From Acinetobacter colistiniresistens (GTDB lineage Bacteria; Pseudomonadota; Gammaproteobacteria; Pseudomonadales; Moraxellaceae), in the NCBI RefSeq assembly GCF_000413935.1, contig NZ_KE340379.1, forward strand, positions 452,595 to 516,594: a DNA stretch of 64,000 bases. Direction: 5' to 3'. Under the pieces are notes generated by a model. The model was not told where the DNA came from. It did not search any database and saw nothing but the letters and a program-made list of their open reading frames with translations. A program made the position numbers and the translations under genes. Positions 1 through 14,008 of the stretch are shown piece after piece (within the stretch, counting starts at the first letter, position 1; each line of letters begins with the position of its first letter).

Positions 1-1704
1 CCAACAACCAATGCTGATGGCTCAAGCAACTATCAAGTCGCGACTGCAAAAGACGTGAACTTCGATAAAGTGACTGTAGGCAGTGTGGTGGTTGATAAAG
101 CGACCAATACGATTAACGGCTTAAGCAACAAGACTTGGAACGGTACAGCAGTCTCAGGTCAAGCAGCGACTGAAGACCAATTGGCTGCAGTGGATAGCAA
201 GTTAGGTAATTTGGATGATGCAGCGGTTAAATACGATGACCCAACGACCAAAGACAAAGTGACTTTAGGTGGAGCAGGTTCAACTACACCAGTGACTTTG
301 ACTAACGTTAAAGCGGGTGCGGTGAATTCAAGCTCAACTGATGCAATCAATGGCAGCCAGTTACATGGTGTTGCAGATAGCGTGAAGAATGCGATTGGTG
401 GCGCAACCACGATTGATGCAACCACAGGTGCGATCACCACCAGTAACATTGGTGGCACAGGTTCGAACACCATTGATGGTGCGATCACCAGCGTTAAAGA
501 TGCAGCAACCAAAGCGAAAACAACTGTTACAGCGGGTGATAACGTTGTTGTAACCCCAACAACCAATGCTGATGGTTCAAGCAACTATCAAGTCGCGACA
601 GCAAAAGACGTGAACTTCGATAAAGTGACGGTAGGCAGTGTAGTCGTTGATAAAGCGACCAATACGATTAATGGTTTAAGCAACAAGACTTGGAACGGTA
701 CAGCAGTCTCAGGTCAAGCGGCGACAGAAGACCAATTGGCTGCAGTGGATAGCAAGTTAGGTGGTTTGGATGATGCAGCGGTTAAATACGATGACCCATT
801 AACCAAAGACAAAGTGACTTTAGGTGGAGCAGGTTCTACTACACCAGTGACTTTGACCAATGTTAAAGCGGGTGCGGTGAATTCAAGTTCAACTGATGCA
901 ATCAACGGCAGCCAGTTACACGGTGTCGCGGACAGCGTCAAGAATGCGATTGGTGGTGCAACTACGATTGATGCAACCACAGGTGCGATCACCACCAGTA
1001 ATATCGGTGGCACAGGTTCGAACACCATTGATGGTGCGATCACCAGCGTTAAAGCAACAGCAGACAAAGGCATCAAATTTGGTAATGGCACGATAAATAA
1101 TCAGTTTGCTTTAGGCGATACGATTAATGTCAAAGGTTCAAGTGATGGCAGTATTACCAGTACCACAACAGCCGATGGTGTACAGCTTGGTTTAGGTAAT
1201 ATCATCAAAGTGGGTACAACTAACCCAGTTACGATTGATGGTACAGCAGGGACAATCGGCGGCTTAAGCAATAAGACCTGGAATGGTACAGCGGTATCAG
1301 GTCAAGCAGCAACAGAAGATCAATTGGCAATCGTTGATGGTAAGTTGGGTGGTTTGGATGATGCAGCGGTTAAATACGATGACCCAACGACCAAAGACAA
1401 AGTGACCTTAGGTGGAGCAGGTTCAACCACACCAGTAACCTTGACTAACGTTAAAGCGGGCGTGGTGAATTCAAGCTCAACTGATGCAATCAATGGTAGC
1501 CAGTTACACGGTGTCGCGGACAGCGTCAAGAATGCAATTGGTGGTTCAACCACGATTGATGCAACCACAGGTGCGATCACCACCAGTAACATTGGTGGCA
1601 CAGGTTCGAACACCATTTCACCAGCGTTAAAGCGACAGCAGACAAAGGCATCAAATTTGGTAATGGTACAAGTAGCAACCAGTTTGCATTGGGTGATACG
1701 CTGA
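1..1704 (+). CDS. 5' fragment of the adhesin (partial, ends after the frameshift)
   Basis: This piece holds two complete passenger repeats and most of a third. After residue I encoded at 1615-1617 the frame goes wrong and reads about 29 unrelated residues before a stop. Without the anchor it could not insert in the outer membrane, so on its own it should be non-functional. The first codon in the window is inside a repeat, so no start can be assigned. Minus-strand open frames over this region are products of the repeat composition, not genes. Confidence 0.75.
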   Translation, partial: PTTNADGSSNYQVATAKDVNFDKVTVGSVVVDKATNTINGLSNKTWNGTAVSGQAATEDQLAAVDSKLGNLDDAAVKYDDPTTKDKVTLGGAGSTTPVTLTNVKAGAVNSSSTDAINGSQLHGVADSVKNAIGGATTIDATTGAITTSNIGGTGSNTIDGAITSVKDAATKAKTTVTAGDNVVVTPTTNADGSSNYQVATAKDVNFDKVTVGSVVVDKATNTINGLSNKTWNGTAVSGQAATEDQLAAVDSKLGGLDDAAVKYDDPLTKDKVTLGGAGSTTPVTLTNVKAGAVNSSSTDAINGSQLHGVADSVKNAIGGATTIDATTGAITTSNIGGTGSNTIDGAITSVKATADKGIKFGNGTINNQFALGDTINVKGSSDGSITSTTTADGVQLGLGNIIKVGTTNPVTIDGTAGTIGGLSNKTWNGTAVSGQAATEDQLAIVDGKLGGLDDAAVKYDDPTTKDKVTLGGAGSTTPVTLTNVKAGVVNSSSTDAINGSQLHGVADSVKNAIGGSTTIDATTGAITTSNIGGTGSNTISPALKRQQTKASNLVMVQVATSLHWVIR

Positions 1705-2400
1705 ATGTCAAAGGTTCAACTGATGGCAGTATTACCAGTACCACAACAGCAGATGGTGTACAGCTTGGCTTGGGTAATACCATCAAAGTGGGTACAACTA
1801 ACCCCGTTACGATTGATGGTACAGCAGGTACAATCGGCGGCTTAACTAACAAGACTTGGAACGGTACAGCAGTCTCAGGCCAAGCGGCAACAGAAGATCA
1901 ATTGGCAATCGTTGACGGTAAGTTGGGTGGTTTGGATGATGCAGCGGTTAAATACGACGACCCAACTGCCAAAGACAAGATCACATTAGCTGGAGTAGGT
2001 GGCACAACAATTACTAACGTTAAAGCAGGTGCTGTGAATGCTACTTCAACTGATGCAATCAATGGCAGCCAGTTACATGGCGTCGCGGATAGCGTCAAGA
2101 ATGCAATTGGTGGTTCAACCACAATTGATGCAACCACAGGTGCGATCACCACTAGTAACATCGGTGGCACAGGCTCGAACACCATTGATGGTGCAATCAC
2201 CAGCGTTAAAGACGCAGCAACCAAAGCAAAAACAACCGTTACAGCGGGTGACAACGTTGTTGTAACGCCAACAACCAATGCTGATGGTTCAAGCAATTAT
2301 CAAGTTTCTACAGCGAAAGACGTGAACTTCGATAAAGTGACTGTAGGTAGTGTGGTGGTTGATAAGGCAAGCAATACTATTGAAGGCCTGAGCAATAAAG
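1..2400 (+). repeat. Long tandem repeats in the adhesin passenger (555-588 bases per unit)
   Basis: The same block recurs with the motif TWNGTAVSGQAATEDQLA. The codon for its Trp starts at 136, 691, 1279 and 1857. The spacings are 555, 588 and 578 bases. The 555 and 588 types differ by a module containing IKFGNGT and FALGDT. The 578 spacing is 588 minus 10, which is independent support for the 10-base deletion in that unit. Units are nearly identical at the DNA level, as expected of recombining repeats. Confidence 0.9.
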
Positions 2401-4664
2401 ACATTACAGCCAGTGATTTTGCAACCAAAGGCAGAGCTGCAACTGAAGAGCAATTGAAAGTTGCAATCAGTAGCAATATCACTGAAGTTGTTGATGGTAA
2501 TGGCAACAAAGTCAATATCATTGACCAAATTGTAAATACCAAACCAGACAACAAAAACCAAGATTCATTGTTCTTAACCTACGATAAGCAAGGTCAAGAA
2601 ACCACAGATCGCCTGACGATTGGACAAACGGTTCAGAAGATGAATACCGATGGAATTAAGTTCTTCCATACCAATGCCGATACCTCAAAAGGTGATCTAG
2701 GGGCAACCAATGACTCAAGTGCTGGTGGTCTCAACTCTACAGCGATTGGTGTAAATGCAATTGTTTCAACAGGTGCAGACAGTGCAGTGGCTTTAGGTCA
2801 CAACAGTAAAGCTGGAGGCAAAGAGTCCATTGCAATTGGTAAAGGTGCTGAAGCAACAGGCCTGCAATCCATCAGTATTGGTACGGGTAACAAAGTGAAA
2901 GGTGATCACTCCGGTGCGATTGGTGACCCAACGATTGTGGATGGTGCAAACAGTTATTCTGTAGGTAATAACAATCAGGTACTGACAGATGATACCTTTG
3001 TACTTGGTAACAATGTGACCAAAACAGTGGCGGGCTCAGTTGTATTAGGGAGTGGTTCTGCTGCAACAACTGGTGCAGGTGTTGCAGGTTATGCATTGTC
3101 CGCTGTGACAGGTGCAGACAAAGCGGCCATTGATAAGACGACATCAACGACAGGTGCGGTTGCAGTTGGTGATGCTGCAAATGGAATTTATCGCCAGATC
3201 ACAGGTGTTGCGGCAGGTAGTGCAGATGCAGATGCCGTGAACGTTGCACAATTGAAAGCGGTAGGCAATCAAGTTGTAACTACACAGAATACACTTGTGA
3301 ATAGCTTGGGTGGCAATGCTACGGTCAATGCCGATGGCACCATTACCGGACCGACTTATAATGTGGCTCAAGGGAAACAGACTAATGTGGGTGATGCATT
3401 AACGGCACTCGACAAAGCCATTGGCACGGTAGGAACAACCTCTAAAACGACGGTGACCAATGGTCAGAATATTGTTGTGAATAAGAGCAAGAATGCAGAT
3501 GGTTCAGATAACTATGAGGTTGCTACAGCCAAAGACTTAACGGTTGATTCTGTGACAGCAGGTAATACAGTTCTGAATAATGCCGGAATTAACATCGGTA
3601 ACAATGCGGTTGTGTTGAACAATACTGGCTTAATCATTGCAGGTGGGCCAAGTGTCACGACCCAAGGGATCAATGCTGGGAATAAACAGATCAGCAATGT
3701 TGCAGCGGGTACCAATGCAACAGATGCCGTGAACAAGGGCCAATTGGATAGTGCGATTAGCAATGTGAATAACAATGTGAATGAGCTTTCCAATAATGCT
3801 GTGAAATACGATGATGCATCAAAAGACAAGATCACACTGGGTGGTACTAATGGAACCACTATTACCAATGTGAAAGACGGTAATATTGCTCAAGGCTCTA
3901 AAGATGCGGTGAATGGTGGGCAAGTTGCGCAAATCAGAGATGATTTACAAGGGCAAATTACTAACAATACCAATAATATTAATAACATTAAAAATGATAT
4001 TAATAATGGTACGGTGGGTCTGGTTAAACAGGCAAATAGTAGTGCTGAAGTTACCGTTGCCAAAGATACTGGAGGTACTAAAGTTAATGTTGCTGGTACC
4101 GATGGTAATCGTGTTGTCACTGGTGTTAAAGATGGTGCAATCAATAAAACATCTACAGATGCAATCAATGGCTCTCAATTAAATGCAACAAATCAAAAAG
4201 TTGTTGAGTTCTTAGGTGGTGGTGCTGGTTATGACAACATTACCAATAGCTTTACCAATCCAACATATAACGTAGGCGGTAAGGACTATAACAATGTGGG
4301 TGGGGCAGTTGATGCATTGAATAAGGCTGATGTAGCGATTAATAATCGTATTGATAGTCTGGAGCAGTCTTTCTACGATACGAATAAGCGTATAAATGAT
4401 GTTGAGAAAAGAGCCAATGGCGGTATTGCTTCTGCACTTGCTGTAGCAAGTTTGCCGCAGCCAACAGAAAAGGGTTACACAATGCTGAGCGCGGGTACTG
4501 GTGTATGGCAGGGTGAATCAAGTGTTGCAATTGGAGCATCAGGTGTAACCGAGGATAGAAGAGTTTTTGGTAAACCAGTGAATTATGTCTGGAAATTCTC
4601 AGGTACAGGTGATAGCCGCGGTAATGTAGGCGGTGGAGCTGCGGTGGGTGTTCAGTGGAAATAA
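1689..4664 (+). CDS. 3' fragment of the adhesin: head, stalk and YadA membrane anchor
   Basis: This frame continues the adhesin after the deletion and in fact reopens from 1618. The codon at 1689 is TTG inside a conserved repeat, with no ribosome binding site, so it is not a believable start. The C-terminus contains the coiled coil before the membrane (NNRIDSLEQSFYDTNKRIND) and the four-strand YadA anchor. The last residues are VGVQWK, so the usual terminal aromatic residue is followed by one Lys. A signal peptide is absent, so the fragment cannot be exported unless joined with the 5' part. Confidence 0.75.
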   Translation: MGDTLNVKGSTDGSITSTTTADGVQLGLGNTIKVGTTNPVTIDGTAGTIGGLTNKTWNGTAVSGQAATEDQLAIVDGKLGGLDDAAVKYDDPTAKDKITLAGVGGTTITNVKAGAVNATSTDAINGSQLHGVADSVKNAIGGSTTIDATTGAITTSNIGGTGSNTIDGAITSVKDAATKAKTTVTAGDNVVVTPTTNADGSSNYQVSTAKDVNFDKVTVGSVVVDKASNTIEGLSNKDITASDFATKGRAATEEQLKVAISSNITEVVDGNGNKVNIIDQIVNTKPDNKNQDSLFLTYDKQGQETTDRLTIGQTVQKMNTDGIKFFHTNADTSKGDLGATNDSSAGGLNSTAIGVNAIVSTGADSAVALGHNSKAGGKESIAIGKGAEATGLQSISIGTGNKVKGDHSGAIGDPTIVDGANSYSVGNNNQVLTDDTFVLGNNVTKTVAGSVVLGSGSAATTGAGVAGYALSAVTGADKAAIDKTTSTTGAVAVGDAANGIYRQITGVAAGSADADAVNVAQLKAVGNQVVTTQNTLVNSLGGNATVNADGTITGPTYNVAQGKQTNVGDALTALDKAIGTVGTTSKTTVTNGQNIVVNKSKNADGSDNYEVATAKDLTVDSVTAGNTVLNNAGINIGNNAVVLNNTGLIIAGGPSVTTQGINAGNKQISNVAAGTNATDAVNKGQLDSAISNVNNNVNELSNNAVKYDDASKDKITLGGTNGTTITNVKDGNIAQGSKDAVNGGQVAQIRDDLQGQITNNTNNINNIKNDINNGTVGLVKQANSSAEVTVAKDTGGTKVNVAGTDGNRVVTGVKDGAINKTSTDAINGSQLNATNQKVVEFLGGGAGYDNITNSFTNPTYNVGGKDYNNVGGAVDALNKADVAINNRIDSLEQSFYDTNKRINDVEKRANGGIASALAVASLPQPTEKGYTMLSAGTGVWQGESSVAIGASGVTEDRRVFGKPVNYVWKFSGTGDSRGNVGGGAAVGVQWK

Positions 4665-5082: not shown

Positions 5083-5991
5083 ATGACGACTTCTGTTGAA
5101 CGAAATAGAAATACTGATCAGCTGATTCAAGCAGTTTCAGATTTAGCTATGCAGCAAGGCGATCATATTTCTACGATTCCTCAGCTTTCTTTTCACCATC
5201 GGATGCGCCCAACCGATAGCACCCATTGTATTTACAATTTGGGTATCGGTATGATTTTACAGGGACAAAAAGAGGTTGTGATTGGTGATCGGAATTACCT
5301 TTGTCATGAAGGGCAAAGTATGTTGACCACCATTGATTTACCCGTAACTTCACATATTGTAAAGGCTTCACCACAGCAACCATTTTTAGCGCTCTTATTA
5401 CTACTTGATCTGCAAATGGTCAACCAAGTGGCGGCAGAAATGCCTGTAGACGTTTTAAGCATGTCAGATGAGAGCCAGCATTCTTTTTCGGTGGAAATTG
5501 CTGATCCTCCCTTGATTGATGCCTTTTTGAGGCTGGTTCGTGTTTTAGATGAACCTTTGATGTTGCCGCATTTAGCTCCTTTAATTCAAAAAGAAATTAT
5601 TGTGCGGGTTTTGAATGGCCCACATGGTCGGTACTTACGTCAGTTAGTGAAATCAGGCTCAGCAAATCAGAAAATTCATCAGGTGGTGAGTTGGTTAAAG
5701 CATCATTATGTGCAACCTATGCGGATGGATGATTTAGCGGATAAGGCCTTTATGAGTCCTTCAACTTTTAGGCAACATTTCCGTGCAGTGACGGGCATGA
5801 GTCCATTGCAATATCAAAAGCAGTTACGGTTACAGGAAGCACGACATTTGATGTTTAACCAAAATGTTGATGCAGGACATGCTGCAGGATTAGTGGGGTA
5901 TGAAAGTGCTTCTCAGTTTAGTCGTGAATATAGCCGTTTATTTGGTGAGTCACCGCAACGGGACATTCAACGCATGCGACAAGGTCTATAA
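5083..5991 (+). CDS. AraC-family transcriptional regulator (first of two paralogues)
   Basis: A DNA-binding regulator of about 302 residues with an AraC-type N-terminal sensing domain (about residues 25-185) and a C-terminal double helix-turn-helix (about 205-295, including MSPLQYQKQLRLQEAR and FSREYSRLFGESP). An in-frame TTG two codons earlier could serve as start, but the ATG at 5083 is preferred. It is followed by a paralogue that shares CIYxLGxGxxLQGQKEV and QSMLTTIDLP-like segments. Together with the paired operators in front of the nearby hydrolase genes, it is a candidate activator of this block. Its ligand is unknown. Confidence 0.88.
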   Translation: MTTSVERNRNTDQLIQAVSDLAMQQGDHISTIPQLSFHHRMRPTDSTHCIYNLGIGMILQGQKEVVIGDRNYLCHEGQSMLTTIDLPVTSHIVKASPQQPFLALLLLLDLQMVNQVAAEMPVDVLSMSDESQHSFSVEIADPPLIDAFLRLVRVLDEPLMLPHLAPLIQKEIIVRVLNGPHGRYLRQLVKSGSANQKIHQVVSWLKHHYVQPMRMDDLADKAFMSPSTFRQHFRAVTGMSPLQYQKQLRLQEARHLMFNQNVDAGHAAGLVGYESASQFSREYSRLFGESPQRDIQRMRQGL

Positions 5992-6067
5992 CGATTGGCT
6001 TTAAAGAGATCGTACGTATTTCTCATCTTCTATATGAGATCAGATGTACAGCAAGATAGGTGATGAG

Positions 6068-6946
6068 ATGGATGCGTCAGATCAAACCAAAGAACTTGTT
6101 AAAATACTGGCTGATAAGGTAGGCAGGTTAGTACAGGATGAAGATTTTCAGACTGGGATTTCAGGTTTTTCTTTACATCGACGTACAGTCAAACAGTCTA
6201 TCCATTGCATTTATGGGCTTGGTTTAGGCATTGTCTTGCAGGGGCAAAAAGAAGTTCTGATTCGTGATAAGGTGTATGGCTATGGAACTGGGCAAACCAT
6301 GCTCACCACCATAGATTTACCTGCGATTAGCCGAGTGACGCAGGCATCTTATCGTGAGCCTTTTTTGGGTATGATGCTGCCATTGGATTTGGACCTGATT
6401 ATTGAAACCGTGCAGGCATTAGATAACAAGATTAAACTTAAAAACCTGCCTGCATTTTCAATCGAGGACCTCGATACCCCACTGATCAATGCATTGTCAC
6501 GTTTAGTCGATTTGATTGAAGAACCCCAAATGATTGAACAACTTGCACCCATCATCAAGCAAGAAATTGTGCTCCGTTTACTGGTTGGGCAACACGGTGT
6601 TTATTTACGTAATTTAGTCAAGGCAACTATTTCGAATCAACATATTTTCAGCGTGATTCATTGGCTAAGAAATAATTTTCTGCAAGAAAATTGTTTACAA
6701 GTGGCTTTTGAGCAGGCCAATATGAGTGCAGCGACATTCAGAAATCAGTTCAAAAACATCACTGGGATGACCCCGCTGCAATACCAAAAACAATTGAGGT
6801 TGCAGGAAGCTCGAAAATTGGTGTTATCACAAACCCTGAATATACAACAAATTGCTGATCGGGTTGGTTATGAAAGTCAGTCACAATTTATTCGAGAATA
6901 TTCACGCTTATTTGGCAGTACGCCCAGCCGAGATGGACAGCGATAA
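6068..6946 (+). CDS. AraC-family transcriptional regulator (second paralogue)
   Basis: About 292 residues, with the same architecture as the preceding gene: an N-terminal AraC sensor with CIYGLGLGIVLQGQKEV and TMLTTIDLP, then a C-terminal double HTH with GMTPLQYQKQLRLQEARK and FIREYSRLFGSTP. The start at 6068 is chosen over the ATG at 6044 because AGG lies 7 bases before it. The two genes probably arose by tandem duplication. The first operator copy begins only about 10 bases after its stop, ahead of the first hydrolase gene, so this protein is a prime candidate to bind it. Confidence 0.88.
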   Translation: MDASDQTKELVKILADKVGRLVQDEDFQTGISGFSLHRRTVKQSIHCIYGLGLGIVLQGQKEVLIRDKVYGYGTGQTMLTTIDLPAISRVTQASYREPFLGMMLPLDLDLIIETVQALDNKIKLKNLPAFSIEDLDTPLINALSRLVDLIEEPQMIEQLAPIIKQEIVLRLLVGQHGVYLRNLVKATISNQHIFSVIHWLRNNFLQENCLQVAFEQANMSAATFRNQFKNITGMTPLQYQKQLRLQEARKLVLSQTLNIQQIADRVGYESQSQFIREYSRLFGSTPSRDGQR

Positions 6947-6956
6947 AACCTTAAAA

Positions 6957-7011
6957 TAGGCAAACTATTTTTAAGAATAGGCAACTTTGATTTGCAGCAA
7001 CTCTCTAGACT
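6957..7011 (+). promoter_or_regulatory. Paired TAGGCAA operator and -10 box in front of hydrolase 1
   Basis: TAGGCAA occurs at 6957-6963 and 6978-6984, a 21-base (two helical turn) direct repeat, as is usual for AraC/XylS-type regulators. A -10-like TAGACT begins at 7006, which is 28 bases after the start of the second site, so the second site abuts or overlaps the -35 region. The same layout is seen at 8187-8241 and on the minus strand at 13954-14008. Confidence 0.7.
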
Positions 7012-7068
7012 GAAGATATCAGCAAAGAGAACTTTGCTTATGCTTTCCTAGATTGAAGAGGTGATGAA

Positions 7069-7983
7069 ATGGAAGCAGTCAAAATTAAAAATACCTATTG
7101 GGATATTGCCGCAGATTTATATTTCCCCCCCGCGTTTGATCAAACTAAAAAATATCCAACCATTATGAGTGCACATCCAATTGGTAGTTGCAAAGAGCAG
7201 ACCTCGGGCAATGTGTATGGCGAAGCACTCGCCAAAGCGGGTTTTGTGGTGATTGCATTTGATGCCAGTTTTCAGGGAGAAAGTGGAGGGGAGCCTCGTT
7301 ATATCGAAGACCCGTCGTTACGTGTTGAAGATTTTCGCATCGTGGTAGATTATCTGGTTACGCTGGATTATGTCGATGAAAATCGAATTGGTGTTTTAGG
7401 TATCTGTGGTGGCGGTGGATACTCGATCAACGCAGCCATGACAGAACGTCGGATTAAAGCGGTAGGGACAATTACGGGTGCAAACTATGGGCGTGTGATG
7501 CGCGAAGCAAGTGGTGGTAATCCGATTGCATTTTTAGAGGCGATTGCAGCTCAACGTACAGCGGAGGCAAGAGGGGCTGTACTTCGGGTGGATCAAGGCT
7601 TGTATCCAACGGTTGAAGCAGCCAAAGCGGATCATGCCGATATTGATCCGTTAGAAGCGACGGAATATTACCGTACTGTACGGGGCGAAAAGCCAAATGG
7701 TGTGAATAAAACGCTGTTCTCTCACAACGCTGTTGCTGTGGGTTGGGATGCTTTTCATTTGGCAGAAATCTTATTGACTCAACCCCTGATGATTATTGTG
7801 GGGAGTAAGCCGGGTGGTTTCGGTGCCTATCGCGATGGTTTTGAAATCATTAATCGTGCTGCCTCAAAAAATAAAGAGTTGGTGGTGGTCGAAGGTTGGT
7901 CTCATTATGACCTCTATGACAAAGCAGAGCCGGTCAAAATTGCTTTAGATAAGCTGATTCCATTCTATCAAGCCAATCTTTAA
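7069..7983 (+). CDS. Alpha/beta hydrolase, dienelactone-hydrolase-like (Cys nucleophile)
   Basis: A cytosolic alpha/beta hydrolase of 304 residues. The nucleophile elbow is GICGG with Cys113, as in dienelactone hydrolases, rather than Ser. The HPIG motif near residue 36 fits an oxyanion-hole segment, and His279 in GWSHYDLYD is the likely catalytic His. The segment CKEQTSG is shared by paralogue 2 and, partly, by paralogue 3. GAGGTGATGAA supplies a good ribosome binding site before ATG 7069. It lies directly behind an AraC operator and next to two AraC genes. The substrate, probably an ester or lactone, cannot be read from the sequence. Confidence 0.85.
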   Translation: MEAVKIKNTYWDIAADLYFPPAFDQTKKYPTIMSAHPIGSCKEQTSGNVYGEALAKAGFVVIAFDASFQGESGGEPRYIEDPSLRVEDFRIVVDYLVTLDYVDENRIGVLGICGGGGYSINAAMTERRIKAVGTITGANYGRVMREASGGNPIAFLEAIAAQRTAEARGAVLRVDQGLYPTVEAAKADHADIDPLEATEYYRTVRGEKPNGVNKTLFSHNAVAVGWDAFHLAEILLTQPLMIIVGSKPGGFGAYRDGFEIINRAASKNKELVVVEGWSHYDLYDKAEPVKIALDKLIPFYQANL

Positions 7984-8186
7984 TTCTTGCTTGTTGTTAA
8001 AAAATGGTGTTGTGAGTTGATCGGGTGACTGATCAACTTTCAAATTTTGCAAAATCTCCTGCTGGAGGGAGGTGAGAGCTGTGGAGCCTGCGTGAATTGC
8101 GAATTATTCCAGTCTTTTTAATTAACACTTTGTATTATTTATCTGAAAATTATAAATAAAATTAAATGAAATATGAACTAACAAAA
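7984..8186. other. Gap between hydrolases 1 and 2
   Basis: The non-coding stretch from 7984 to 8314 is 331 bases. The first 200 bases are AT-rich and show no gene or convincing terminator. The second part holds the paired TAGGCAA operator and promoter listed separately. Confidence 0.5.
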
Positions 8187-8241
8187 TAGGCAAATATCCC
8201 GTCGGAATAGGCAATTTGATCAGGTTTTTGCATCCTATACT
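8187..8241 (+). promoter_or_regulatory. Paired TAGGCAA operator and -10 box in front of hydrolases 2 and 3
   Basis: TAGGCAA occurs at 8187-8193 and 8208-8214, again exactly 21 bases apart. TATACT begins at 8236, 28 bases after the start of the second site, the same distance as in the 6957 copy. The sequence between the sites differs, so the match is in the half-sites and the geometry, not a simple duplication of the promoter. Confidence 0.7.
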
Positions 8242-8314
8242 CGAAGTATGAAAAGTAGCCCTCAATCTAAAAATGGATTGTTGTTACACATCATCATCAA
8301 GCGAGGTACTCAAC

Positions 8315-9241
8315 ATGCAAGCGGTTCGCTATAAAAATTTGGCATGGGAATCGGCAGCAAATCTCTTATTCCCAAATGATTTTGATCCAGCTCAAAAATA
8401 TCCTGCAATCGTTAGTGTTCATCCAATTGGTAGTTGTAAGGAGCAGACTTCGGGCAATATTTATGGCAAGGCATTGGCCGAAGCAGGCTTTGTTGTTTTA
8501 GTCATTGATGCATCTTTTCAGGGAGAAAGTGGTGGTGAGCCACGTTTTATCGAGAATCCGTATCACCGTGTCGAAGACATTCGCTATGCCGTGGATTACT
8601 TGGTTACACAAGACTTTGTTGATGAAAACCGAATTGGTGCGCTAGGAGTGTGTGGGGGTGGTGCGTATGTCTTAAATGCGGCATTAACAGAGCGTCGTCT
8701 GAAAGCCGTGACCTCGATTACAGGGGTGAATTTTGGCCGTATGACGCGTGAAGGTTATGGCGGTACAGGGCAGGCCTTAATTGAAGGGCTAGAAGCAGTT
8801 GCACGGCAACGTACTGCCGAAGCTCGAGGCGCAGAATTATTAGTTAATAACTTATTACCGCCATCCGTAGAAGAAGGTAAAAAAGCTGGAATTACAGATA
8901 TTGATCCACTAGAAGCGACCGATTACTACAAAACATCTCGCGGACAGCAACCGAATGGAGCAACCAGTGCCCTGTTCTCCCGTATGAGTGTGGCATTAGG
9001 TTGGGATGCATTCCATTTATCTGAGGTCCTATTAACCCAACCGATTTTAGTGGTGATCGGTGATAAACCCGGTGCATTTGGGGCTTACCGTGATGGACAT
9101 GAAATCATACGTCGTGCTGCATCAGCACAAAAAGAGTTATTGGTGTTAGAAAACACCTCACATTATGAACTTTATGATCAACCAGAACCTGTAGCGAAAG
9201 CTTTGGAAAAGGTGATTCCCTTTTTTAAGCAATACCTTTAA
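8315..9241 (+). CDS. Alpha/beta hydrolase, dienelactone-hydrolase-like, paralogue 2
   Basis: A paralogue of the gene at 7069 over its whole length (308 residues from ATG 8315), with HPIGSCKEQTSGN, the elbow GVCGG with a Cys nucleophile, and a terminal His in NTSHYELYD. The start at 8315 is preferred over an in-frame ATG at 8273 because GAGG lies 8 bases upstream and the N-terminus then matches paralogue 1. It is the first gene of a probable two-gene unit with the next hydrolase (40-base gap), driven by the AraC-type operator at 8187. Substrate unknown. Confidence 0.85.
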   Translation: MQAVRYKNLAWESAANLLFPNDFDPAQKYPAIVSVHPIGSCKEQTSGNIYGKALAEAGFVVLVIDASFQGESGGEPRFIENPYHRVEDIRYAVDYLVTQDFVDENRIGALGVCGGGAYVLNAALTERRLKAVTSITGVNFGRMTREGYGGTGQALIEGLEAVARQRTAEARGAELLVNNLLPPSVEEGKKAGITDIDPLEATDYYKTSRGQQPNGATSALFSRMSVALGWDAFHLSEVLLTQPILVVIGDKPGAFGAYRDGHEIIRRAASAQKELLVLENTSHYELYDQPEPVAKALEKVIPFFKQYL

Positions 9242-9281
9242 GCCTTAAGTCTAAATCAAAAATATTCATAGGAATAAGATT

Positions 9282-10199
9282 ATGTCTAAAGATATTAGTA
9301 TTCAAAATCATAATGGTCAGGGGATCACCCTTGCAGCAGTGATTAATTTTCCGGACGGATTTGATCAAAACAAAGTCTATCCCGCGATTGTCGTCAGTCA
9401 TCCAGGTGGTGGTGTCAAGGAACAAACAGCAGGCCTATATGCACGAAAATTAGCTGAGCATGGATTTATTAGCATTGCCTATGATGCATCGTATCAAGGT
9501 GCGAGTACTGGCTTACCACGTCAGTTAGAAAACCCATATATCCGTACCGAAGATATCAGTGCCGTGATTGATTATTTAACAACGTTGCCTTATGTCGACA
9601 ATGAGCGTATTGGTGCAATGGGGATTTGTGCAGGGGCTGGTTATACCGCAAATGCAGCAATTAATGATCGTCGTATCAAAGCGGTGGGCATGGTAAGTGC
9701 GGTCAACATTGGACAAATGTTCCGTAATGGATGGGAGAACAATGTCAGAGATGCCGATGCGCTTCCTTATATTCAAGCAGGTTCCGATGCGCGAACTTCA
9801 GATGCCAGTGGCACTGAAATTGCCACAATTCCGCTTGCACCGTTGAGAGAGGAAGATGCTCCCAATGAGGAATTACGTGAAGCGTGGGAGTATTACCATA
9901 CTTCACGTGCCGAGCATCCGAATGCACCAGGTTTTGCCACTGCGCGTAGTTTAACCCAGATCATGACTTACGATGCTTACAACAAAGCTGAAGCTTTTTT
10001 GACTCAACCTTTATTGGCAATTGCAGGAAGCGTAGCAGGCAGTAAATGGATGAGTGAAGACTTGATTCATCGTGCGGCAAGTAGTGATAAGCAACTCTAT
10101 ATCGTGGTTGGAGCCAACCACATGTCACTTTATGACAAATTAAACTTCGTTGATGAAGCCATACAACAGTTAACGGCGTTCTTTAGTGCCAAGCTTTAA
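9282..10199 (+). CDS. Alpha/beta hydrolase, more divergent paralogue 3
   Basis: 305 residues with an alpha/beta hydrolase fold. It keeps the HPGGG oxyanion segment, KEQTAG, the nucleophile elbow GICAG (Cys), and a late His in GANHMSLYD. It differs from the other two in its middle cap region (about residues 150-215). AGGAATAAG precedes the ATG. It lies 40 bases after paralogue 2 with no terminator between, and a strong terminator follows, so the two form one transcript. Substrate unknown. Confidence 0.85.
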   Translation: MSKDISIQNHNGQGITLAAVINFPDGFDQNKVYPAIVVSHPGGGVKEQTAGLYARKLAEHGFISIAYDASYQGASTGLPRQLENPYIRTEDISAVIDYLTTLPYVDNERIGAMGICAGAGYTANAAINDRRIKAVGMVSAVNIGQMFRNGWENNVRDADALPYIQAGSDARTSDASGTEIATIPLAPLREEDAPNEELREAWEYYHTSRAEHPNAPGFATARSLTQIMTYDAYNKAEAFLTQPLLAIAGSVAGSKWMSEDLIHRAASSDKQLYIVVGANHMSLYDKLNFVDEAIQQLTAFFSAKL

Positions 10200-10210
10200 T
10201 ATAACGCGAT

Positions 10211-10241
10211 AAAAAAGACAGGCGATTGGTCTGTCTTTTTT
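10211..10241. terminator. Bidirectional intrinsic terminator after hydrolase 3
   Basis: The arms AAAAAAGACAG (10211-10221) and CTGTCTTTTTT (10231-10241) pair perfectly around a 9-base loop. The A-run and T-run on either side serve both the hydrolase genes and the converging LysR gene. Confidence 0.85.
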
Positions 10242-10263
10242 ATATTTTCAGACTTTGAAACGG

Positions 10264-11169
10264 TTATGCATACAGTTGTTGCGGTAATTTTTCCACGAGT
10301 TGATCAATCGCCAAACGGGTTTTAAGGGGCATGAAGGGCAGAGTGGGCCAAAGGACGTAGATTGGAAAGTCAACACTGGAGAAATTTGCCAATACCTGAA
10401 TTAAGGTCCCTTGTTGCAGCTCGTGATGAACCAGCCAATCGGGTAGCCAAGCAATGCCATGATGTGACAGGACCGTATTTTTAATCGCTTGCATATCATT
10501 TAACATCAATTTTGCTTGTGGTTTGATGGTATAGCTCTGTTTATGTTCATCTTGAAGATGCCATTTGGGTTGCTGTCCTGAATAGGGATAAGCAATCGTC
10601 GTATGCTGTTGTAGATCATCGAGCTGATGTAAAGCACTCGACCTTTCAAGATATTGTGGTGTTGCACAGAGCAGCATGCGGTGATCCCCCAGTTTTCTTG
10701 CAACCAAATGATGACTATCGGGCAGCGTACCAATCCGAATGGCCAAGTCAAAGCCATCCTCAACCAGATCTATGGTTCGGTCATTCAATGAGAGTTCGAT
10801 TTGCAAATCAGGATGTTGTTGTGCAAGTTCAACCATCAGTGGCGCAACATAGAGCTGTCCAAACAGTACTGGGGCTGAAATTCTCAATAGCCCCGTCGCA
10901 TTGATTTTGCCTTGATCTAATAAACTTTCAGCAGTATGGATTTCTGCGAGCGCACGATGGCTATGTTCATAAAACAGAGCACCTTCTGTAGTTAGGCTCA
11001 GTGTACGAGTGGTGCGCTTAAACAAAGTCACGCCCAAGCGCTCTTCTAAGCGAGCGATACTCTTACTGACAGCTGAGCGAGTCAGATGCAATTGTTCAGC
11101 CGCGTTGCTAAAACTTCCTGCTTCAACCACGGTGACAAAGATTGAGATGGTATTGAGTTCAGTTTGCAT
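10264..11169 (-). CDS. LysR-family transcriptional regulator
   Basis: 301 residues with the LysR N-terminal winged HTH (VVEAGSFSNAAEQLHLTRSA, about residues 14-33) and a periplasmic-binding-protein-like effector domain (about 90-295). It is transcribed divergently from the AzoR-like reductase gene across a 99-base gap, the classic arrangement in which a LysR protein controls its neighbour and itself. Many family members of this type respond to quinones or electrophiles, which would suit the neighbour. That is an inference from position. Confidence 0.9.
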   Translation of the reverse strand: MQTELNTISIFVTVVEAGSFSNAAEQLHLTRSAVSKSIARLEERLGVTLFKRTTRTLSLTTEGALFYEHSHRALAEIHTAESLLDQGKINATGLLRISAPVLFGQLYVAPLMVELAQQHPDLQIELSLNDRTIDLVEDGFDLAIRIGTLPDSHHLVARKLGDHRMLLCATPQYLERSSALHQLDDLQQHTTIAYPYSGQQPKWHLQDEHKQSYTIKPQAKLMLNDMQAIKNTVLSHHGIAWLPDWLVHHELQQGTLIQVLANFSSVDFPIYVLWPTLPFMPLKTRLAIDQLVEKLPQQLYA

Positions 11170-11206
11170 TATTGTAGATTATTTGGAATCAATTTATAGA
11201 AATAGT

Positions 11207-11221
11207 ATCACTACTGGTGAT
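11207..11221. promoter_or_regulatory. Palindrome between the LysR gene and the azoreductase gene
   Basis: ATCAC (11207-11211) and GTGAT (11217-11221) form a 15-base palindrome with a T-N11-A pattern, as in LysR boxes. It sits in the divergent gap about 48 bases before the reductase start. Candidate operator only. Confidence 0.4.
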
Positions 11222-11268
11222 TTAAATCTAATAGTAAGATAGCTTCATCAAAGATATGGAGAACAACC

Positions 11269-11865
11269 ATGGCGAAAGTGCTGGTATTAAAATCAAGTAT
11301 TATGGGTGATCAATCACAAACCAGTCGTTTAGTCGATGTATTTTTACAAGAGCGTGTGGAGAAAGGATTGCAGGATGAAGTCATCATCCGTGATTTAGCA
11401 ACACTGAATCTACCTGTACTTGATGCCGAGATATTCCAAGCGTTACGTGGCGCTGAGAATGTTGCAGCACCGATTCAAAAGATTATTCAGTTATCAGATG
11501 AACTTATTGCCGAGTTGAAGGCAACCGATTTATTGGTCATTGGGGCGCCAATGTATAACTTGAATGTTCCGACACAGTTAAAAAACTGGTTTGATTTAGT
11601 GGCCCGTGCCCGTCACACCTTCCGATATACCGAAACTTACCCGCAAGGTCTGGTTGAAAATGTAAAAGCCATTGTGATGACTAGTCGTGGTGGAATTCAT
11701 TTGGGACAGGTAACGGATGCAGTGACGCCTTATCTTCAGTCTGTTCTAGGCCTGATGGGTATCCATGATGTGAATTTTGTCTATGCAGAAGGCCTGGATA
11801 TGCCAGCATTAAGAACAGATGCCTTAAAAGCTGCACAGCAAAAGGCCCAGCAGGTTGCCGTTTAA
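11269..11865 (+). CDS. azoR: FMN-dependent NADH:quinone oxidoreductase / azoreductase (AzoR-like)
   Basis: A cytosolic flavodoxin-fold reductase of 198 residues. It has the N-terminal phosphate-binding segment LKSSIMGDQSQTSRL (about 7-21), the PMYNLNVPTQLKNWFD motif (about 94-109) that holds FMN in AzoR, and the SRGG segment near 145. AzoR reduces quinones and azo dyes by two electrons and protects against thiol-reactive quinones. GGAG precedes the ATG. The divergent LysR gene is its probable regulator, and a clear terminator follows. Confidence 0.9.
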   Translation: MAKVLVLKSSIMGDQSQTSRLVDVFLQERVEKGLQDEVIIRDLATLNLPVLDAEIFQALRGAENVAAPIQKIIQLSDELIAELKATDLLVIGAPMYNLNVPTQLKNWFDLVARARHTFRYTETYPQGLVENVKAIVMTSRGGIHLGQVTDAVTPYLQSVLGLMGIHDVNFVYAEGLDMPALRTDALKAAQQKAQQVAV

Positions 11866-11902
11866 AAATTGATAAACCCCTTTACTGCTGCTCGATTGGC
11901 AG

Positions 11903-11937
11903 AATCGGACAATGATCCAACTCATTGTCCGATTTTT
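11903..11937. terminator. Terminator between the convergent azoR and NAD(P)-binding genes
   Basis: The arms AATCGGACAATGA (11903-11915) and TCATTGTCCGATT (11922-11934) pair perfectly around a 6-base loop, followed by a T-run on the plus strand. Confidence 0.85.
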
Positions 11938-12578
11938 TATGCGTTGATGAAGTAAGGTCGATCTGCAGCTGTATTGGGTTTATTCACCCCGAGATTTTTT
12001 CGTGAAGCAACGTTGGGCTGCTGAATGATTTTGACGACCAGCGCCGCAACACTTTTACGGGAAACCACGGTGCCTTTAAAGTCTTGATCACGTTCAGTGG
12101 TTTCATAATCAATTTCATCTTCATCCATGAGCCATGCTGCACGCAAAATACTGTAATCCAGATCAGAGGCTTCTAACAAATCAGCTGCTTTACGGTAGGG
12201 GCCGAGGTAGGCACCAATTTCTTTGCGATTCCAGTCACTAAACTTACCTTTGACCTCATCATAGATGCCTAATGAATTGATCAAAATAATGCGTTGAACA
12301 CCCGCTGTGTACATGGCAGCAATCATGTTTTCTGTTTGCGCTTCGAGCTCACCAGCCAAGTTTGCATAGACGATATCTTGACCTTGAACGGCTTGTTGCA
12401 CTTGTTCCAAGTTCAATGCATCACCTTCGATAACTCTTGTATTGGCAGGTAGATTCGACGCTAATTTTCTTGCATCGCGGACAAATAAGGTTTGGGTGAG
12501 ATCAGCTTCATTGGCTAACATGTCAATAACCCATTTAGCGATTTGGCCTGATGCACCAAGAATCAATACATGTTTCAT
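11937..12578 (-). CDS. NAD(P)H-binding protein of the atypical SDR / NmrA type
   Basis: 213 residues with an N-terminal Rossmann motif GASGQIAKW (about 8-16), the glycine-rich NAD(P) signature of atypical short-chain dehydrogenases such as NmrA- and YwnB-like proteins. The ATG at 12578 is chosen because the protein then begins [11 protein letters not shown] and GAGGG lies 8 bases upstream. The family includes quinone-responsive or NAD(P)-sensing proteins as well as reductases. The exact reaction is unknown. It converges on azoR. Confidence 0.8.
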
Positions 12579-12736
12579 TTTAGCTGCCCTCTGCATAGAG
12601 AATCCGTCTGTATGGCGTATTCTTACTGTTTTTGATGTTTTTATTAAAGCTTAAATAGTCAAACAGAAATGACCTGAAATGCGCAGTTATTTGCCTAATT
12701 TGATGAGCTTGACCGTTTTTAAGATATCCATAAAAA

Positions 12737-12754
12737 GCCCCATCGAAATGAGGC
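12737..12754 (-). terminator. Terminator of the metallo-hydrolase gene
   Basis: On the minus strand GCCTCAT, a TTCG loop, and ATGGGGC pair with one G-T wobble and are followed by TTTTTA. It is placed about 25 bases after the stop of the gene at 12779. The remainder of the 12579-12778 gap shows only the promoter region of the downstream gene. Confidence 0.7.
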
Positions 12755-12778
12755 GGTATATTGTAGAGGCGAGTTTCT

Positions 12779-13900
12779 TTAACGAATGTTCTGCCACCAT
12801 TGTTTAAAGCTTTGATGCTCATTATCCAGTTCAACCAACTCGCCAATCATGGGAGTGGCAAGGCGATATTTTCTGTTCTTTGAATATTCGACAATGCGGG
12901 TAATTGGTTCATCCCATGCGTGCTTGGCCAAACTGAATTTTGAATGATGCACAGGAATCATATTGCGTGCATTCAGTTCTTCGGTCGCTTGCGCCACTTC
13001 ATCTGGATGGCAATGCACGGAACGCCAGGCGGCATCGTATTGTCCATTTTCCATCAAGGCCCAATCAAAGGGACCATATTTTTGTCCAATCTCGATAAAG
13101 TGTTTGTCATAACCGCCATCGCCGGTATAAAAAATCTTTTTATCAGGGGATTGAATCACGAACGATACCCAAAGGTTTTTGCCGCCATCAAACGCACGTC
13201 GAGAATCATGATGGGTGGTTTCAGTGATAATACTAATGCCATCATCAAATTCGATTTTGTCACCCCAATCTCTTTCGATCAGCTTTTCTTTGGGATAACC
13301 CCAGTACTCAAAGTGTTCGCCTACACCTAGACCTGTAATGACATATTTAACTTTATCTTTGAGTTTAAGTGTTGTTTCATAATCCAGATGGTCATAGTGA
13401 TCATGCGAAATCAGTAGATAATCAATATTAGGTAACTCTTCAACGGTATAAATATCAGTCCCTTTATAGGCTCGTGTGCCCCAAGGAAAAGGGGAGGCTT
13501 TGCCGCTCATGACGGGATCAATCAAAAAGGTTTTACCATGCAATTGCATAAATACGGATGAGTGTCCAAACCAGATGATGACATCCTGTTTAGGGTTGAG
13601 GCTGAGTAGATTGGTTTTAATTGAAGGAATCGGATCAATTGGATTGCGATGAGGAATGGTTTTAATAAAGGTTTTGTAGAGTTCTACCGCAATACTTGAA
13701 CCTTCACTCATTCCAGATTTTTCGATCAGGTTACGGAATTGGCCTTGTCGATAATTGGGAGAGTTCTCGATCAATTGGAGGCGTTTACCAGAAGGGATTT
13801 TACCGAATAGAGGTTGTTGGGTATATATGGCACTGCCAGCAATGAGCAGAACAACAGCGATCGCAAAAAGAATAAGCATAAATGGAGTCCACCTTTTCAT
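12779..13900 (-). CDS. Membrane-anchored metallo-beta-lactamase-fold hydrolase (NAPE-PLD/UlaG-like)
   Basis: 373 residues from ATG 13900. A Lys-Arg start followed by one hydrophobic segment (about residues 5-24) makes a signal anchor, so the enzyme domain should face the periplasm. The domain carries the metal motif HDHYDH (HxHxDH), GDGGYD and a later His, typical of the Lactamase_B_2 family that includes N-acyl-phosphatidylethanolamine phospholipase D and UlaG. An earlier TTG at 13942 is less likely. Its promoter carries the same paired TAGGCAA operator as the hydrolase genes, so it is probably in the same AraC regulon. Substrate unknown; a lipid-like phosphodiester or a lactone is possible. 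Confidence 0.85.
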   Translation of the reverse strand: MKRWTPFMLILFAIAVVLLIAGSAIYTQQPLFGKIPSGKRLQLIENSPNYRQGQFRNLIEKSGMSEGSSIAVELYKTFIKTIPHRNPIDPIPSIKTNLLSLNPKQDVIIWFGHSSVFMQLHGKTFLIDPVMSGKASPFPWGTRAYKGTDIYTVEELPNIDYLLISHDHYDHLDYETTLKLKDKVKYVITGLGVGEHFEYWGYPKEKLIERDWGDKIEFDDGISIITETTHHDSRRAFDGGKNLWVSFVIQSPDKKIFYTGDGGYDKHFIEIGQKYGPFDWALMENGQYDAAWRSVHCHPDEVAQATEELNARNMIPVHHSKFSLAKHAWDEPITRIVEYSKNRKYRLATPMIGELVELDNEHQSFKQWWQNIR

Positions 13901-13953
13901 TTGAGCATTCGATACAACAGTAATAAAAACTAAAAGCGACAAAATGATGAAAT

Positions 13954-14008
13954 ATTATCTAAAAGTCGACGAATGAAAATTTGCCTATAGTTATTGAATT
14001 TTTGCCTA
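13954..14008 (-). promoter_or_regulatory. Paired TAGGCAA operator and -10 box of the metallo-hydrolase gene
   Basis: Read on the minus strand, TAGGCAA occurs at 14008-14002 and 13987-13981, 21 bases apart. GATAAT starts at 13959, again 28 bases after the start of the second site. This is the third copy of the same layout, in opposite orientation about 7 kb away from the first, in front of an unrelated hydrolase. Confidence 0.7.

Follow-up and report, generated by a model that had tools for sequence, protein, structure and literature searches.

The stretch analysed here, which we call the window, comprises 64,000 nucleotides of the Acinetobacter colistiniresistens genome (G000:C6:452595-516594). 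It carries a cluster in which two AraC-type regulator genes, AraC1 and AraC2, are followed by a tandem pair of TAGGCAA boxes and hydrolase 1, by a second such pair and hydrolases 2 and 3, by genes for a LysR-type regulator and a flavodoxin-fold reductase, and, on the minus strand, by an NAD(P)-binding gene and a metallo-hydrolase gene, the latter with a third pair (Table 1). The cluster recurs in related species. Among the nearest are A. gyllenbergii and A. vivianii, and the three top-scoring loci that carry a species name match hydrolase 1 at 96-98% identity. We consider it likely, judging from sequence comparison, that these pairs and a weaker conserved fourth site are tandem operators read by the adjacent AraC1 and AraC2, both of the AraC_N type. 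The two regulators would activate promoters lacking a recognisable -35 box.

Table 1. Genes, tandem sites and -10-like boxes of the cluster (window coordinates)
Feature	Position	Strand	Description
AraC1	5083..5991	+	AraC_N (PF06719) and HTH_18; Pfam 7.7e-45 and 5.8e-21
AraC2	6044..6946	+	AraC_N and HTH_18; Pfam 2.8e-37 and 2.3e-22; 47% identity to AraC1
Tandem site 1, TAGGCAA-N14-TAGGCAA	6957..6984	+	Begins 11 bases past the AraC2 stop; kept before hydrolase 1 in relatives
-10-like TAGACT (site 1)	7006..7011	+	
Hydrolase 1	7069..7983	+	Alpha/beta hydrolase; Cys in nucleophile elbow GICGG (elbow by eye)
Tandem site 2, TAGGCAA-N14-TAGGCAA	8187..8214	+	Precedes hydrolase 2
-10-like TATACT (site 2)	8236..8241	+	
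Hydrolase 2	8315..9241	+	GVCGG elbow
Hydrolase 3	9282..10199	+	GICAG elbow; same direction, downstream of hydrolase 2
LysR-type regulator	10264..11169		Inside the cluster
NAD(P)-binding oxidoreductase	11937..12596	-	NAD_binding_10, Pfam 8.5e-53; likely fourth target
Weaker fourth site, TAGGCAA-N14-CAGGTCA	12670..12697	-	Three mismatches; TTTAAT at +28 (12648-12643); before the NAD(P)-binding gene
Metallo-beta-lactamase-fold hydrolase	12779..13903	-	Lactamase_B_2, Pfam 8.1e-32; predicted membrane-anchored (N-terminal hydrophobic stretch by eye)
-10-like GATAAT (site 3)	13954..13959	-	
Tandem site 3, TAGGCAA-N14-TAGGCAA	13981..14008	-	Precedes the metallo-hydrolase

The original prediction had placed six TAGGCAA boxes in three promoters, the two boxes of each pair starting 21 bases apart, and a -10-like hexamer starting 28 bases beyond the second site. 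All of these boxes and hexamers were found where they had been placed, counting exactly 28 bases from the first letter of the second box, and all three promoters stand, although the weaker fourth site had been overlooked. Throughout the 3.9 Mb genome, the exact pattern TAGGCAA-N14-TAGGCAA occurs three times, always at these promoters, and its reversed control does not occur at all, so that the many random hits which would have spoken against the prediction are absent from this genome. The exact-pair observation is real and lies far beyond chance. The same three sites are also the only exact matches to the combined pattern of pair and -10-like box; since allowing one or two mismatches adds six matches and the control equally gives six, this genome has no strong sites beyond these three. 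Pairs at up to three mismatches (267 + 266, against 204 + 217 for the control) are in slight excess and were not used, and neither were single TAGGCAA boxes, of which the window holds 17 against 9.9 expected, a number near background that 6 of 100 shuffles reach. Hydrolase 3 has no pair of its own within three mismatches, and a scan with a sigma-70-like consensus, as a pattern test only, gave no match with a -35 box at the three window sites.

Outside the window, the genome has three pairs with one mismatch, which were not counted: two fall inside reading frames (L004, L006) and one lies amid irregular TAGGC repeats (L005, also L149). At the latter place (L149:4947-4974; C6:270947-270974 of the same genome) there are five intergenic TAGGC-type repeats of irregular spacing, including the single-mismatch pair at 21, with no recognised target gene close by. 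The two-mismatch pairs were viewed in context in 24 of 42 cases, for reading-frame overlap only.

Across ten related Acinetobacter loci, leaving the window out, start-to-start spacings from 10 to 60 yielded 21 exact pairs at spacing 21 and none at the 50 others; with one mismatch there are 22 pairs at spacing 21 and at most four at any other. Among 29 intergenic sites picked for exact boxes, the match to the -10 consensus is 4.2-4.5 of 6 at offset 28 and at most 2.8 at the other offsets from 20 to 39, and most positions of the linker between the second box and the -10 are poorly conserved. The two direct repeats stand about two helical turns (21 bases) apart, the proximal one at the putative -35 position and at a fixed distance from the -10. 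With the -10 hexamer starting at -12, the proximal box would lie at about -40 to -34 and the distal one at -61 to -55, which corresponds to the class II geometry of AraC/XylS activators.

A survey of 149 Acinetobacter genomes found 44 exact pairs in 28 genomes, against eight for the reversed control. Intergenic pairs number 31, and 29 of them lie before hydrolase 1 or 2, the metallo-hydrolase, an AraC gene of the cluster, or an old-yellow-enzyme gene that the window lacks; in G027, one pair stands directly before an AraC gene. The 13 non-promoter pairs were treated as chance: 12 lie inside reading frames (nine loci in a frame of 392-408 amino acids on the opposite strand, two in one of 439 and one in one of 304 amino acids), and the thirteenth, the second match of G053, was assigned there by its letters, which are those of the nine, and not by its context. 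The window also differs from L060 and L061 at 7984-8180, where these relatives carry the old-yellow-enzyme gene and a third AraC_N gene (AraC3) between hydrolase 1 and the hydrolase 2 promoter; the hydrolase 2 operator stays in place.

The exact intergenic pairs co-occur with the regulators. They were found in 12 of the 13 genomes with an AraC1 relative of at least 46% identity (a line drawn in the genus set after the data had been seen) and in four of the other 136, namely G024, G057, G090 and G030. The thirteenth carrier, G055, has a two-mismatch pair beside its AraC gene. Scoring took in no more than 15 candidates from the first look at each genome (out of 40 and 35 for G024), so the lack of an AraC1-3 relative in any one genome is not proven.

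A comparable picture emerges from the metallo-hydrolase promoter, for which we compared the 200 bases upstream of 20 orthologues of at least 76% identity. When the AraC cluster is present, a pair within one mismatch is found in eight of nine genomes, the ninth (G140) having two mismatches; where the cluster is absent, this falls to four of 11, with two mismatches in G142 and no pair within three mismatches in the other six (G056, G021, G118, G091, G028 and G096). This pattern fits a decay of the pair after loss of the regulator. The fourth site is kept in all eight loci with an NAD(P)-binding gene of at least 55% identity, as TAGGCAA-N14-CAGGTCA or CAGGTGA with TTTAAT or TTAAAT at +28. By eye, a further element downstream of the third pair, TTTCATCATTTTGTCGCTTT (window 13880-13960; L153-L172), is kept in 19 of the 20 metallo-hydrolase orthologues (not in L172), even where the pair has been lost, and may be a second regulatory element.

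As for the regulators, AraC1 and AraC2 both combine an AraC_N domain with a C-terminal double helix-turn-helix, and AraC_N is also found in the AraC3 of L060 and in the pair-adjoining AraC proteins of L109, L133, L143, L254 and L257. Their second recognition helix reads SASQFSRE in AraC1 and AraC3 and SQSQFIRE in AraC2, and since these helices are nearly alike, we infer that AraC1, AraC2 and the AraC3 of relatives likely read the same box. The set of regulators varies while pairs are kept: in G097 and G017, AraC1 is alone in the fetched stretch, and in G122 (A. baylyi; L062/L151) the AraC1 frame is split in two, and AraC2, a shorter AraC3 and two pairs remain. The order in L062 is AraC2, pair, hydrolase 1, pair, old-yellow-enzyme gene and AraC3.

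In a class-wide search of 274 genomes, six exact pairs were found beyond the window's own genome, and six for the control. Because a comparable set of 114 genomes, with the window's own among them, had AraC_N genes in as few as four, the test was repeated around AraC1 relatives, at 29 loci, of which 12 (the five closest and seven others) were examined in larger stretches, with named loci added. Here, a degenerate pair with a -10-like box in register was found in seven of eight loci with relatives of at least 46% identity and in none of eight with weaker relatives, under criteria set post hoc (the 46% line, a pair within three mismatches, and a -10-like box at +28 or +29). The positive loci include Photobacterium galatheae (L133) and P. 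ganghwense (L105), where the pair and box precede hydrolases 3-2, a gammaproteobacterial metagenome-assembled genome (L109), where they precede hydrolase 1, and G732, G791, G255 and G697 (L254-L257), where they lie near AraC1 relatives; in L257, some 1 kb separates the pair from the AraC gene downstream of it, and the -10-like box is at +29. The negative locus above the line is L258 (G750). Those below it are L113 and L259-L265, all negative, L259 and L264 having a pair within two mismatches but no -10 in register. Not part of the comparison are L085 and L135, where AraC is matched only in part (103 bits), L067, L086, L088 and L097 (AraC below 60 bits), L127 (31% to YqhC), the Acinetobacter locus L143, and the 17 loci not extended, two of which (L208, L211) have a one-mismatch pair whose -10 was not scored. 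SASQFSRE is identical in five of the seven pair-positive loci outside the genus and in the Escherichia coli regulator YqhC.

The likeness to YqhC extends to its domains, AraC_N and HTH_18. The E. coli yqhC-yqhD intergenic DNA holds TAGGCAA-N14-TGAGCAT, in the same 21-base register, with a second box that matches at just four of seven positions. When this 136-base gap was shuffled by mononucleotides, 12 of 5000 shuffles produced an exact box with a partner within three mismatches at 21, and 16 of 2000 attained the best pair score. The match is no more than suggestive; E. coli genomes are too alike for comparative footprinting of the gap. According to the literature, YqhC turns on detoxifying enzymes upon exposure to aldehydes (PMC5297802; PMC6115493), a SoxS-like sequence and a 24-bp palindrome have been described in the yqhD promoter (PMC6115493), YqhC is reported as a single-target regulator (PMC8249747), and patterns of its sites appear in a supplementary figure of a ChIP-exo (chromatin immunoprecipitation with exonuclease) study (PMC8464067). 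The genes controlled differ from yqhD-dkgA: from 5.0 to 14.8 kb, the scan covered ten genes, which encode regulators, hydrolases, the flavodoxin-fold reductase, the NAD(P)-binding protein, the metallo-hydrolase and one protein without a Pfam match, and no yqhD- or dkgA-type aldehyde reductase is among them.

Other AraC-type systems invite comparison as well. CmrA (PA2047) of Pseudomonas aeruginosa is an AraC-type regulator tied to the electrophile response, and the likeness drawn here is to this general description. In the XylS/Pm system, the proximal repeat overlaps the -35. Published sources give the mexEF-oprN pump as the known output of CmrA (PMC8151288) and, for XylS/Pm, two 15-base direct repeats, each with the boxes TGCA and GGTA, which a dimer contacts to activate, the proximal site being filled first (PMC5481539). 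Here too, two direct repeats stand upstream of the -10; unlike XylS/Pm, one 7-base box stands out in each repeat, no second box is evident in the spacer, and the regulators carry the AraC_N domain. The literature searched, mostly open-access main texts, held no report of TAGGCAA as an AraC site and no paper joining AraC, old yellow enzyme, Acinetobacter, hydrolase and regulon.

Taken together, the co-occurrence with AraC_N genes, the boxes and -10 hexamers kept while spacers vary, the further members in relatives and the same geometry in other genera support the small AraC regulon that had been predicted. In the mechanism that we propose, AraC1 and AraC2 would sit side by side on a pair, on one face of the DNA, each box being the main contact of one monomer, and the bound pair would switch on a promoter that has no recognisable -35 box. 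The targets would be the three Cys-elbow alpha/beta hydrolases, the NAD(P)-binding oxidoreductase, the metallo-hydrolase and, in relatives, the old-yellow-enzyme reductase.

Several observations weigh against this reading. Lowering the line to 41% identity to AraC1 adds two genomes without an exact pair, G133 and G092, and changes the co-occurrence to 12 of 15 against four of 134. Exact intergenic pairs also stand in G090 and G030, which lack such an AraC gene, and these two, the only intergenic pairs away from the cluster's genes, are probably due to chance. They precede an apparent flavin monooxygenase gene (L148:4069-4096, G090) and an apparent nrdR (L052:1501-1528, G030), both named by eye, and neither has a clear -10-like box in register. 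The significance is overstated by the Fisher p values (1.5e-13 and 0.025), because the genomes are related and the sites before hydrolases 1 and 2 may have arisen from one another by duplication. The metallo-hydrolase pair is kept in four genomes where no close AraC1-3 relative was found (exactly in G024 and G057, with one mismatch in G071 and G078), which would require a recent loss of the regulator or another reader, and one of the eight fourth-site loci, that of G024, likewise lies in a genome found without AraC1-3. Beyond the genus, several of the -10-like boxes are weak (GACACT, GAAACT), and the spacing scan of intergenic pairs with at most one mismatch within 1500 bases of AraC1 relatives at the 29 loci (four pairs at spacing 21, three at 27, one at 20 and none at the others from 14 to 44) is weak alone, since all four pairs at 21 come from one genus (g226) and spacing 27 gives three.

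The genomes that keep pairs without close relatives of AraC1-3, above all G024 and G057 with their exact metallo-hydrolase pairs, lend some weight to the idea that the pairs are read by a regulator encoded elsewhere, for instance a distant AraC_N paralogue, and that the adjoining AraC1-3 control something else. Candidates for such a reader exist: contig C7 of the A. colistiniresistens genome carries an AraC_N gene, the third of this genome, with 30% identity to AraC2, and G057 has an AraC relative of 36-37% identity about 18 kb from its site. Nevertheless, the co-occurrence of pairs with AraC1-3, the pair directly before an AraC gene in G027 and the weakening of the pair in genomes without the cluster speak for the neighbours; moreover, G021, G118, G091 and G028 have AraC2 matches of 28-30% (which may or may not correspond to the C7 gene), yet no pair within three mismatches at their metallo-hydrolase promoters. 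We hold a distant reader to be unlikely.

Much less probable still is that the repeats are no operators and merely reflect promoter segments that were duplicated and then inherited. Hydrolases 1 and 2 are alike, and so are AraC1-3, so that their promoters may be copies; however, the same layout is found at the metallo-hydrolase, the old-yellow-enzyme gene and the NAD(P)-binding gene, which come from other families, the spacers differ while the boxes and the -10 stay, and the layout recurs in other genera. The LysR-type regulator, whose gene sits inside the cluster, hardly comes into question as the reader, since L147, L150 and L151 keep exact pairs in fetched loci without a LysR gene and direct heptamers 21 bases apart differ from T-N11-A, the usual layout of LysR sites. 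Conversely, in L063 and L123, hydrolase 1 relatives stand beside a LysR gene with no AraC neighbour, and the whole locus has no pair within two mismatches.

With AraC1 and AraC2 as the preferred readers, the signal to which they would respond can be approached through the enzymes. The nearest solved chains to hydrolase 1 are YcjY (5xb6) and PA2218 (2hdw), neither listed with a stated function, and that to the metallo-hydrolase is NAPE-PLD (4qn9, 1.6e-35); the old-yellow-enzyme protein of L060 belongs to Oxidored_FMN. A Cys in the nucleophile elbow is also found in dienelactone hydrolase. From the YqhC precedent and the kinds of enzyme controlled, we predict by analogy, as the least certain step of the proposal, that the regulon answers a reactive electrophile, such as an aldehyde or an unsaturated carbonyl or lactone.

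A wider proposal, which we put forward tentatively and regard as possible rather than probable, is that AraC_N regulators of the YqhC type share an ancient code, with two YRGGCAA boxes 21 bases apart and a -10 box 21 bases past the second, a code that would span Acinetobacter, Photobacterium and the YqhC of E. coli. Several paralogues per cell would read this code, so that cassettes of AraC, operator and enzyme could shuffle freely among detoxification enzymes. This operator code is the interesting part of the finding: it gives a branch of AraC regulators that is common but has been little mapped a concrete DNA code. Should the code extend to YqhC, the sites published for YqhC could be read anew, and sequence could serve to predict the targets of unstudied AraC_N regulators. 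The regulon defined here is small, and the shared substrate of its enzymes can be sought by finding the inducer.

Upstream of the cluster, at 55-4664, the window holds long repetitive reading frames for a surface protein, which by eye appears to be a trimeric autotransporter adhesin and is split into two frames near 1690.

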